Assembly (NCBI RefSeq): GCF_029626265.1
Contig: NZ_JARUBN010000001.1
Coordinates: 5,211,001-5,275,000 of the forward strand
Reading direction: 5' to 3'
From: Micromonospora sp. WMMD1102
GTDB lineage: Bacteria > Actinomycetota > Actinomycetes > Mycobacteriales > Micromonosporaceae
DNA: 64,000 nt
In this document: positions 17,513 to 20,067 of the stretch, piece after piece
Layout of the letters: every line of letters begins with the position of its first letter
Numbering within the stretch: the first letter of the stretch is position 1
Program-made: the position numbers and the translations under genes
The notes under the pieces: model-generated
Databases searched by the model: none
The model's input: the letters and a program-made list of their open reading frames with translations, nothing else
What the model was told of the DNA's origin: nothing

Positions 17513-18700
17513 CTAGTCGAGCAGGGCGGTCACCGTTCCGGCGGCGACCGTCCGGCCGCCCTCCCGGACGGCGAAGCCGAGCCCGACGTCCATCGCGATC
17601 GGCTTACCCAGTTCGACCGTGACCGTCACGGTGTCACCGGGCGCCACCTGGGGCAGTTCGCCCAGGTCCACCGCGCCGACCACGTCCGTCGTCCGGAAGT
17701 AGAACTGCGGCCGGTAGTTGGCGTGGAACGGCGTACGCCGGCCACCTTCGGCGGTGGTCAGCGCGTGGAGCTGGGCGGTGAACCGCCGGTGCGGCGTGAC
17801 GCTGCCCGGCATCGCCACCACCTGCCCCCGCTGCACCTGGTCGCGCTTGACCCCGCGCAGCAGTACGGCCGCGTTGTCCCCGGCCTGCGCCGACTCCAGC
17901 GACCGACCGAAGGTCTCCAGCCCGATCGCCACGGTCGACAGGGTCGGGGCGAGCCCGACCACCTCGACCTGGTCACCGGCGCGCAGCGAGCCGCGCTCGA
18001 CCGCCCCGGTCACCACGGTCCCCCGGCCGGAGATGGTCAACACGTTCTCGATCGGCATCAGGAACGGCCGGTCGAGGACGCGCGGCGGCACCGGGACGTA
18101 CCTGTCGACCGCGTCGAGCAGGTCTCCGATGGATTTCACCCAGTCCGGGTCGCCCTCCAGGGCCCGCAGCGCGGAGACCCGCACCACCGGCACCTCGTCG
18201 CCGGGGAAGCCGTACTCGCTGACCAGCTCCCGCACCTCCAACTCGACCAGGTCGAGCAGTTCGGGGTCGTCGACCGCGTCCGCCTTGTTCAACGCCACCA
18301 CCAGGTACGGCACGCCGACCCGCTGGGCGAGCAGCACGTGCTCCCGGGTCTGCGGCATCGCACCGTCCATCGCCGAGACGACCAGGATCGCCCCGTCCAC
18401 CTGCGCCGCCCCCGTGATCATGTTCTTCACGTAGTCGGCGTGGCCCGGCATGTCCACGTGCGCGTAGTGCCGGGTCGCGGTCTCGTACTCGACGTGCGCG
18501 ATGGTGATGGTGATGCCCCGGGCGACCTCCTCCGGCGCCCGGTCGATGCCGTCGAAGGCGACGAACCGGTTGACCGCCGGGTCCCGGTCGGCGAGCACCT
18601 TGGTGATCGCGGCGGTAAGGGTGGTCTTGCCGTGGTCGACGTGCCCCATCGTGCCGATGTTCAGGTGCGGCTTGGTGCGTACGAACTGGCTCTTGGCCAT
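17513..18700 (-). CDS. tuf: divergent elongation factor Tu paralog, 395 aa
   Basis: A complete EF-Tu: [10 protein letters not shown]-loop, RGITI switch I, DMPGHADY (G3), NKAD (G4), domain 2 GRGTVVTG and domain 3 [11 protein letters not shown]. It is not the housekeeping copy by context: no rpsL, rpsG, fusA or rpsJ nearby, and the sequence is unusual. At the E. coli R123-Q124 site it reads QR (LLAQRVGVP) and at R230 it reads Ala (VTGAVERG). Both positions are known from elfamycin-resistance mutants (Q124K for kirromycin, R230C for pulvomycin). So a resistant or specialised EF-Tu, comparable to Tuf3 of streptomycetes, is likely. ATG 18700 has GAGGA 7 bases upstream. A hairpin and a small ORF lie in its leader. 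Confidence 0.92.
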
Positions 18701-18836: not shown

Positions 18837-18874
18837 ACCCTCCTCCGTGGGTTCTGCTGGTGCGGGAGGAGGGT
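18837..18874 (-). promoter_or_regulatory. attenuator-like hairpin in the tuf leader
   Basis: A perfect 10-bp stem, ACCCTCCTCC (18837-18846 on +) with GGAGGAGGGT (18865-18874), and an 18-base loop. Read on the minus strand it begins at the stop codon of the leader ORF, so a ribosome at the end of that ORF would cover the 5' arm. One arm contains GGAGGAGGG, which could also act as a Shine-Dalgarno sink. It lies about 135 bases before the tuf start. Confidence 0.65.
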
Positions 18875-18996
18875 CAGCCTCGCGCGCCGCTATCCAGCCC
18901 GTGCAGCTGGACCGGCGAGGTGGTCGCCACGCACACGGCGGCGGGACCCAGCAGGACGAACCCTGCGGGCCACACAACCCCAGCCGTGCCGAACAT
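18874..18996 (-). CDS. putative tuf leader peptide, 40 aa
   Basis: A small [21 protein letters not shown] onward, ending [10 protein letters not shown]. It begins 7 bases after TAACGT, so it is placed as a leaderless first cistron of the tuf transcript. Its TGA overlaps the first base of the attenuator-like stem. The geometry (leaderless ORF, stop at the hairpin, then the main gene) is that of ribosome-mediated attenuation leaders. The peptide itself matches nothing I know. It could still be chance: the frame is open further upstream to 19113. Confidence 0.45.
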
Positions 18997-19003
18997 GACG
19001 ATC

Positions 19004-19009
19004 ACGTTA
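19004..19009 (-). promoter_or_regulatory. -10 box of the tuf leader transcript
   Basis: TAACGT on the minus strand (19009 to 19004) stands 7 bases before the ATG of the leader ORF. It is a good actinobacterial -10. No clear -35 is seen at 17-18 bases. Confidence 0.4.
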
Positions 19010-19290: not shown

Positions 19291-20067
19291 GTGGTCATGT
19301 CGCGCCAATCCACCCCGACGTTCGTACGCCTGACCGCCCATCCGCTGCGCTGGCGACTGCTCACCGAGCTAGCGACCGGCGACCTCCGGGTCCGGGAGCT
19401 GGTGGCACTGGTCGGCGAACCGCAGAACCTGGTCTCCTACCACCTGCGACTCCTGCGGGACGGTGGACTGGTCACTGCCGTGCGCAGCAGCTACGACGGA
19501 CGGGACAGCTACTACCACCTCGACCTCGATCGCTGCGCGAACGCACTGGCCGACACCGGCGCCGCGCTGCACCCGGCACTGCGTCGGGAATCCGCCCCGC
19601 TGCCGGTGCGTCCCGTCGACCTGCGGCGTACGCCCCGAGTCAGCGTGCTCTTCGTCTGCACCGGCAACAGTGCCCGCTCACCGATCGCCGAGGCCCTGCT
19701 CCGGCACCACACCGACGGGCAGGTCGAGACGATCAGCGCAGGCGGTTCACCCAGGTCCCGGCTGCATCCCGGCGCCGCACGAGTCCTTCGCAGGGAGTTC
19801 GGCGTTCGCATCGCGGACCAGCTCCCCCGGCACTGGGACACCGTCGCCGGGCGCCGGTTCGACTACGTCATCAGTTTGTGCGACAGGGCCCGCGAGAAGT
19901 GCCCCGACTTTTCGGGCGGTCCCCGGCGGGTGCACTGGAGCATCCCCGACCCTGCCGCCGACGGTGACCCGGACCAGGTCGACCACTCCGCCTTACAGCG
20001 GGCCGCGGTCGACATCGACACCCGGGTCAGGCGTCTGCTGCCCGTCCTGTGCACCACTCGACCCTGA
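19291..20067 (+). CDS. ArsR regulator fused to ArsC-type arsenate reductase, 258 aa
   Basis: Residues about 1-100 are an ArsR winged helix (PTFVRLTAHPLRWRLLTELATGDLRVRELV, LVSYHLRLLRDGGLV). The usual ELCVC metal-binding motif reads ELATG, so the classical As(III) cysteines are absent. Residues about 115-255 are a low-molecular-weight phosphatase/arsenate reductase fold with the P-loop VCTGNSARSPIAEALL (CX5R) and the extra thiols of thioredoxin-coupled ArsC, LCDRAREKCPDF, followed by VHWSIPDPA. So sensing and arsenate reduction are joined in one chain. GTG 19291 fits the leaderless promoter; ATG 19297 is an alternative. Confidence 0.88.
   Translation: MVMSRQSTPTFVRLTAHPLRWRLLTELATGDLRVRELVALVGEPQNLVSYHLRLLRDGGLVTAVRSSYDGRDSYYHLDLDRCANALADTGAALHPALRRESAPLPVRPVDLRRTPRVSVLFVCTGNSARSPIAEALLRHHTDGQVETISAGGSPRSRLHPGAARVLRREFGVRIADQLPRHWDTVAGRRFDYVISLCDRAREKCPDFSGGPRRVHWSIPDPAADGDPDQVDHSALQRAAVDIDTRVRRLLPVLCTTRP

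Follow-up and report, generated by a model that had tools for sequence, protein, structure and literature searches.

A conserved leader with a small open reading frame and a predicted pseudoknot precedes tuf3-type EF-Tu genes in actinobacteria

Anatomy of the locus

The window, a stretch of 64,000 nucleotides from Micromonospora sp. WMMD1102, carries on its minus strand a gene for a tuf3-type EF-Tu together with an elaborate leader, the parts of which are collected in Table 1. An earlier note on this DNA had called the gene a divergent, spare EF-Tu, and its product is indeed only 65% identical to the main EF-Tu of the same genome. The same note had described TAACGT, a 7-base gap, an ATG opening a 40-codon frame, and a TGA overlapping a perfect 10-bp stem with an 18-base loop. 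Direct reading of the window confirmed all of these elements to the base, and the tuf start, which had been placed about 135 bases past the stem, lies 136 bases beyond it, at the ATG at 18700. Three parts of the leader are absent from that note, namely a WblC-type box upstream of the promoter hexamers, a rare CGA codon near the end of the upstream open reading frame (uORF), and a second helix (P2), one strand of which lies inside the loop of the first (P1).

Table 1 Features of the tuf3-type locus in the window
Feature	Position	Strand	Remark
WblC/WhiB7-type box GAATAT (consensus GAAAWY)	19041-19036	minus	3 bp before -35
-35-like hexamer TCGCGG	19032-19027	minus	17 bp to -10
-10 element TAACGT (TANNNT)	19009-19004	minus	7 bases before uORF ATG
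Leaderless uORF, 40 sense codons	18996-18874 (ATG 18996, TGA 18876-18874)	minus	conserved frame
Hairpin P0 within uORF, GCAGGG TTCG TCCTGC	18966-18951	minus	5/6 pairs in 25/25 nearest relatives
Rare Arg codon CGA, penultimate sense codon	18882-18880	minus	CGA in 67/72 loci
P1 5' arm, first base being the A of the UGA stop	18874-18865	minus	direct reading and covariation
P1 3' arm	18846-18837	minus	direct reading and covariation
P2 5' strand CAGAACC, inside P1 loop	18856-18850	minus	own-versus-cross pairing tests
P2 3' strand GGTTCTG	18786-18780	minus	own-versus-cross pairing tests
tuf3-type EF-Tu, 395 aa	18700-17513	minus	TIGR00485, 603 bits (cut-off 522.4)

Two further observations were made at the locus. 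An in-frame GTG at 18838, within the 3' arm of P1, opens a 441-aa reading frame (18838-17513, minus strand), and automatic annotation could place the tuf3 start there, absorbing the leader. On the plus strand, a divergent gene at 19297-20064, preceded by an AT-rich stretch, combines an ArsR-type HTH with an arsenate-reductase-like domain in a single frame.

Occurrence of the leader before tuf3-type genes

A DNA search with the leader gave a match in five of six other genomes of the genus, the sixth (G004) having only a main tuf gene and a chance match. Among 300 genomes of the family, 285 were matched, mostly at just the start of a tuf gene; two leader-DNA matches lying in sugar-kinase-like coding sequence (L014 and L015) were rejected as chance. 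Further tuf3-type loci were obtained from protein searches of order and class samples and from a scan of named genomes, and include those of Streptomyces dysideae (L049), S. pseudovenezuelae (L054), Actinophytocola gossypii (L057), and Nocardia sp. CC227C (L094). We analysed 72 loci, 30 of which came via leader DNA, a route biased towards the leader, and 42 via EF-Tu protein similarity. The leader was present in all 42 loci picked by the EF-Tu protein and not by the leader. Many of the 72 loci are close relatives rather than independent events, and alignment A1 accordingly holds 62 rows, the distinct sequences among them. A "Streptomyces-like" set is referred to below; its label was inferred from similarity to the named loci.

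Left out of the 72 were duplicates (L008, L017, and L129-L132), chance anchors at other EF-Tu loci without an ATG (L072, L079, and L095), and other EF-Tu loci without P1, including L056 and L067, which are of the main-like type. The latter two, EF-Tu copies from Streptomyces, share 68% and 66% identity with the query, and neither has the leader. L142 and L180 were also left out, their start being unmatched by the script, yet both have the leader; L222, L223, L239, and L240 were added later and stand outside the 72. None of ten main-tuf loci (L143-L152) showed the TGACC stem. The earlier note had been prepared to give up its reading if the uORF and stem were not conserved in close relatives; both recur in the 72 tuf3-type loci.

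R1, a covariance model of the uORF end and P1, was run on a class sample of 296 genomes. Its best 33 genomes (E <=5.3e-6, a line drawn after inspection of the list) coincide one for one with the 33 that the tuf3 protein search picks out at E 1e-172, an agreement that is partly built in, as 29 of the 33 leaders are in the model alignment and a thirtieth duplicates one of these. G558, G549, and G726 are matches independent of the model alignment. Below the 33 come a tuf3 locus in G624 (E 6.6e-6) and then G590, where the tuf3 gene is decayed and the leader is kept. The matches in G677, G763, G562, and G574, none of them before an EF-Tu gene, were read as chance, and so were those in G462, G137, G353, G902, and G842, likewise not before EF-Tu. 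Among the R1 matches opened, the leader preceded no gene other than EF-Tu. In an order sample of 249 genomes, a score of 585 bits or more marked 15 genomes as having tuf3, the rest being main-type; all 15 have the leader, and the further strong R1 matches in G481 and G312 are tuf3 loci outside the model. A phylum sample of 246 genomes yielded seven strong R1 matches and G590. None of these lies outside the class, and the model already contains most of them; two weak matches in unrelated coding sequence were rejected. Within the window's own genome, the next R1 match after the tuf3 locus reached only E 0.17.

Promoter, uORF and RNA structure

The same best-fit layout precedes the uORF in 72/72 loci, consisting of a GAAAWY-like box, 3 bp, a -35-like hexamer, 16-18 bp, a -10-like element, 6-7 nt, and the ATG. 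When the promoter score was compared with 200 shuffles of each upstream stretch, at most 5% of shuffles scored as high in every one of the 72 loci (mean 11.8 vs 6.3), with a mild bias in that the uORF ATG was itself picked by promoter score among in-frame ATGs. Just two of the three key -10 bases are present in the Streptomyces-like set and several other loci. Box, 3-bp gap, -35, spacer, and -10 together correspond to a predicted WblC/WhiB7-activated promoter. The window's genome encodes a WhiB-like protein (L237) with an RGRP AT-hook, a mark of WhiB7. In the whiB7-like locus of this genome, the script found no GAAAWY-like match, and several short ORFs are located there. Separately, three identical WhiB-like frames (L234, L235, and L236) were seen in G000:C1 near 3947, 51951, and 8669278; two of them lie near the two main-contig ends, possibly as an end repeat.

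The layout of WblC-activated promoters, with the GAAAWY consensus 3 bp from the -35, a spacer of 16-19 bp, a TANNNT-like -10 and starts 7-8 bp past the -10 element, is set out in PMC7157823. Because published WblC-type starts fall at this distance, the predicted transcription start is the uORF ATG. A start between the hairpin and tuf, which the earlier note had named as fatal to its reading, is thus disfavoured by the promoter layout. According to excerpts of the same paper, S. coelicolor tuf3 (SCO1321) is directly WblC-activated, WblC and HrdB having been found at its promoter, and is inducible by tetracycline (PMC7157823); tuf3 is also assigned to the HrdB regulon in an excerpt of PMC6344877. 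As a side observation, a leader motif of Streptomyces pntA is a weak riboswitch candidate (PMC11109978), and pntA is among the WblC-activated genes named in PMC7157823, so that other WblC genes may have structured leaders.

Across the 72 loci the uORF takes 21 different lengths between 24 and 65 codons, always in frame with a stop at the stem. The frame is thus kept while length varies and the stop stays fixed to the stem, which bears out the earlier view of this small ORF as a leader. Its peptide commonly starts with MF and mostly ends in GAR followed by G, S, or R, or in DTR followed by G, S, or I. Of single-change codon differences, 299/657 (46%) were synonymous in a 33-codon set versus 27% expected, and 343/970 (35%) in a 30-codon set versus 28% expected. 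In the 30-codon set the changes by codon position were 457/651/661, and because position 2 is as variable as position 3, the coding signal is weak there. A conserved in-frame coding sequence therefore lies before the gene, as for a regulatory uORF, and a regulatory role is predicted for it.

The penultimate sense codon is CGA in 67/72 loci, GAG in three, and GAT in two. CGA accounts for 0/176 Arg codons in five coding sequences of the window and for 18/2125 (0.85%) in the 72 tuf3 coding sequences. Such a rare codon being yet so prevalent at this one position, selection appears to act on the nucleotides and not on the residue alone. A Salmonella his-leader assay, as presented in an excerpt of PMC4046918, found CGA to be read slowly or poorly. 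In the consensus fold of the window group, the C and G of CGA are paired with bases after P1, so there may be an RNA reason for part of the codon; the A, which is the base that makes the codon rare, is unpaired in that fold.

Three loci outside the 72 show variants of the leader end. L240 (G312) is a minimal version with an 8-codon uORF (MFRRDARS), CGA-AGC-UGA, and P1, its tuf3 being cut by the contig end; its P2 strands are GAGAACC in the loop and GGTTCTC downstream. At L222 (G624), a tuf3 leader, CGA stands where the stop is usually found, and the stop of the uORF comes 12 nt later. L223 (G590) is a decayed EF-Tu3-like gene that keeps the leader end with P1 and P2, and no in-frame uORF ATG was found at it. 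Hairpin P0 was rejected as a core part of the leader, the 8-codon uORF of L240 having no room for it; since its pairs are invariant in the 25 nearest relatives, P0 is without covariation support.

P1 is paired in 95.1% of cells over the 62 distinct sequences. In the covariation check that the earlier note had proposed for the stem, 40 cells were changed on both sides, compared with 14.8 +- 3.0 in shuffles, none of 500 of which reached the observed count. Its loop measures 14-27 nt in the 72 loci, and in 37 of them 2-5 more pairs can be added to the helix, which takes it into the stop and last codon. The folding stability of the whole leader is ordinary (z = -0.77), so the evidence for the leader lies in conservation and not in energy. 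A search of Rfam gave no match at gathering score for the leader; weak resemblances to two microRNA families (best E 0.22) fell far short of the respective gathering scores and were rejected.

P2 pairs sequence in the P1 loop with sequence downstream of P1. Lineages are aligned in different registers in alignment A2, and P2 was assessed by own-versus-cross pairing rather than counted on that alignment. With one locus from each of 11 short-spacer groups, the mean longest Watson-Crick run was 8.55 between a locus's own strands and 4.98 with those of others, a value that 0/2000 permutations reached. Omission of L174, which belongs to a genus common with the Streptomyces-like set, left this difference in place (8.3 vs 4.9, 0/2000), and 9/90 foreign pairs then reached a run of 7. 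One group is represented by L045, which lacks a good P2; this locus was retained in both calculations. Strand pairs include GGACCCC/GGGGTCC, GAGCCCC/GGGGCTC, GGGAACCCAC/GTGGGTTCCC, CGGGACCTCGG/CCGAGGTCCCG, and CGTGACCCG/CGGGTCACG. A run of at least seven Watson-Crick pairs occurs in 65/72 loci as opposed to 10% of shuffles when 75 nt are searched; runs were counted from this length because those of 6 often arise by chance (in 31% of shuffles). A looser test, which took the whole loop and 75 nt downstream and also allowed within-lineage crosses, gave means of 7.56 for own, 6.10 for cross, and 5.56 for shuffled strands.

Loop L2 measures 0-4 nt and loop L3 9-15 nt in the short-spacer groups, the exceptions being the automatic picks for loci L045, L171, and L176. 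Most of the window's nearest relatives have an L3 of about 43-51 nt before the P2 3' strand, and P2 varies little among them. By covariation and loop length, P1 and P2 are predicted to interleave as an H-type pseudoknot.

Possible modes of action

H-type pseudoknots that act as frameshift signals consist of two interleaved stems about 12 nt ahead of the ribosomal P site. A ribosome holding CGA in its A site would have a P-site codon that starts 11 nt ahead of the 10-bp P1, counted to the first base of the helix. By analogy, this is roughly the spacing at which a ribosome would run into downstream structure; in loci whose P1 reaches into the stop codon, contact would come approximately one codon earlier. 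The rare, slow codon is thus placed close to the point at which the pseudoknot would slow the ribosome down, and termination would require P1 to be opened, so that we read the leader as a putative ribosome-gated pseudoknot. The tuf3 leader differs from frameshift pseudoknots in having no frame that continues into the gene, and programmed frameshifting or readthrough into tuf3 was rejected, as the stop-to-ATG distances fall into the three classes modulo 3 at 20, 29, and 23 of the 72 loci.

The earlier note had described the stem as a hairpin attenuator. The stem was upheld but the attenuator was not, as 0 terminator-like sites (GC-rich hairpin plus U-tract) were found in the window between 18600 and 19300 and the stem appears to be one half of a pseudoknot. 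Classical transcription attenuation, in which P1 would be a terminator or pause hairpin and the position of the ribosome on the uORF would select an antiterminator as in the whiB7/wblC leader, has in its favour that tuf3 belongs to the same regulon and that wblC itself is described as under a uORF and attenuation in excerpts of two papers (PMC7157823; PMC12421871). We consider it unlikely, because besides the missing terminator-like site there is no U-run after P1 in the leader sequences inspected, the 14-27-nt loops and interleaved P2 are unlike an intrinsic terminator, and no competing partner for P1 appeared in the two consensus folds made. In translation attenuation, the uORF end would instead pair with the tuf3 ribosome-binding region, which a ribosome on the uORF end would free. 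GCTTCG, the complement of the uORF end CGAAGC, does occur within the last 60 nt before tuf3 in 17/23 Streptomyces-like loci, but such a 6-mer is found in only 3/49 other loci, and the uORFs of L175-L178 end in CGACGC, with the matching GCGTCG only in L177. We regard this mode as quite improbable; among Streptomyces-like loci, GCTTCG/CGAAGC may tie the uORF end to the tuf3 ribosome-binding site in a lineage-specific way.

Between 82 and 191 nt separate the stop from tuf3, and owing to this variation the pseudoknot would not simply cover the tuf3 ribosome-binding site. With no terminator-like site and a variable distance, neither plain intrinsic termination nor such covering fits all lineages. 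The combination of a conserved pseudoknot with a variable distance to tuf3 would suit a self-contained module, in which the pseudoknot is bound by a protein (EF-Tu itself or some other factor) or blocks 5'-3' decay, the uORF mainly serving to hold a ribosome at the 5' end as protection for the mRNA; this explanation leaves the fixed UGA position and the CGA codon unaccounted for, and we regard it as distinctly unlikely. A last alternative is that conservation concerns only a WblC promoter and a functional leaderless small protein, with an incidental RNA structure; good conservation of the promoter and the frequent MF start speak for it. It is highly improbable, however, because P1 and P2, both of which covary, are situated at the stop (P1 from its A onwards) or beyond it, and the uORF ranges from 8 to 65 codons.

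Returning to the ribosome-gated pseudoknot, we propose that WblC would supply a transcript starting at the 5'-terminal AUG of the leaderless uORF, and that ribosomes would reach the pseudoknot roughly as their A site receives the poorly decoded CGA. When elongation is fast, ribosomes would pass, terminate, and leave, whereupon the pseudoknot would reform and tuf3 would be held down. When aminoacyl-tRNA delivery by EF-Tu becomes limiting, as with translation inhibitors, an EF-Tu block, or starvation, ribosomes would dwell on CGA-NNN-UGA, and this dwell would prevent P1 from closing and increase tuf3 output. Which way the effect runs, with the open state as the productive one, is a guess, and the open pseudoknot could increase output through less premature transcription stop, better tuf3 initiation, or mRNA protection. 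The uORF and pseudoknot would in this way add a second, direct check of elongation on top of WblC.

The earlier suggestion of a translation-sensing switch for a spare EF-Tu is well supported as regards the predicted anatomy. Elfamycins, which the earlier note had given as an example of a trigger, would be a candidate inducer; the induction published for the S. coelicolor gene is by tetracycline. That the locus is a conserved actinobacterial cis-regulatory leader of a backup EF-Tu gene and works by the proposed mechanism, taken jointly, we put at a probability of roughly one half. The narrower proposal of an EF-Tu-function sensor, in which the time needed for delivery of the Arg-tRNA ternary complex at a pseudoknot-held CGA would decide whether the backup EF-Tu is made, is offered tentatively and is rather unlikely to hold.

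uORF attenuators are already known in the WblC regulon and elsewhere. A 2022 study by Lee, Lee and Roe reportedly described a uORF leader of whiB7/wblC through which the regulator itself is controlled by transcription attenuation. Like the tuf3 leader, it is an actinobacterial uORF leader within the same antibiotic-stress regulon; it is described as working by transcription attenuation, whereas the tuf3 leader has a predicted stop-fused pseudoknot and no terminator-like site was found in it. The leaderless polycysteine uORFs of mycobacteria are said, after Canestrari in 2020, to be attenuators that respond to cysteine via Cys codons. They resemble the tuf3 uORF in being leaderless and actinobacterial, and differ from it in their use of Cys codons where the tuf3 leader has one near-invariant CGA and a predicted pseudoknot. 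At the toiL uORF of E. coli topAI, antibiotic-stalled ribosomes alter RNA structure and relieve repression, as summarized in PMC12121999; the structure there occludes the topAI ribosome-binding site, Rho is involved, and the gene differs from tuf3 (PMC12121999). The Streptomyces ARE5 ABCF genes tiaA and are5sc have antibiotic-responsive uORFs before a translation-protecting factor, which an excerpt of PMC12421871 presents as very short, with a ribosome-binding site and with proposed terminator/antiterminator folds.

Streptomyces EF-Tu3 is inhibitor-resistant and made only under stress, according to a passage of PMC12309360 that cites earlier work. Among the literature matches listed, setting aside the original tuf3 papers and the wblC attenuation paper, there was no description of the tuf3 leader, and as far as we found in the literature, post-transcriptional gating of Streptomyces EF-Tu3 synthesis has not been described. 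The tuf3 leader would provide a concrete circuit, in which a stress activator is combined with a proposed elongation-sensing uORF and pseudoknot. If the codon-pseudoknot logic is true, it would be a terminator-free bacterial readout of elongation, and model R1 would be a handle for finding such leaders elsewhere. The EF-Tu-sensor reading, if true, would represent a class of uORF defined by a codon-pseudoknot pair and not by a terminator or a stalling peptide.
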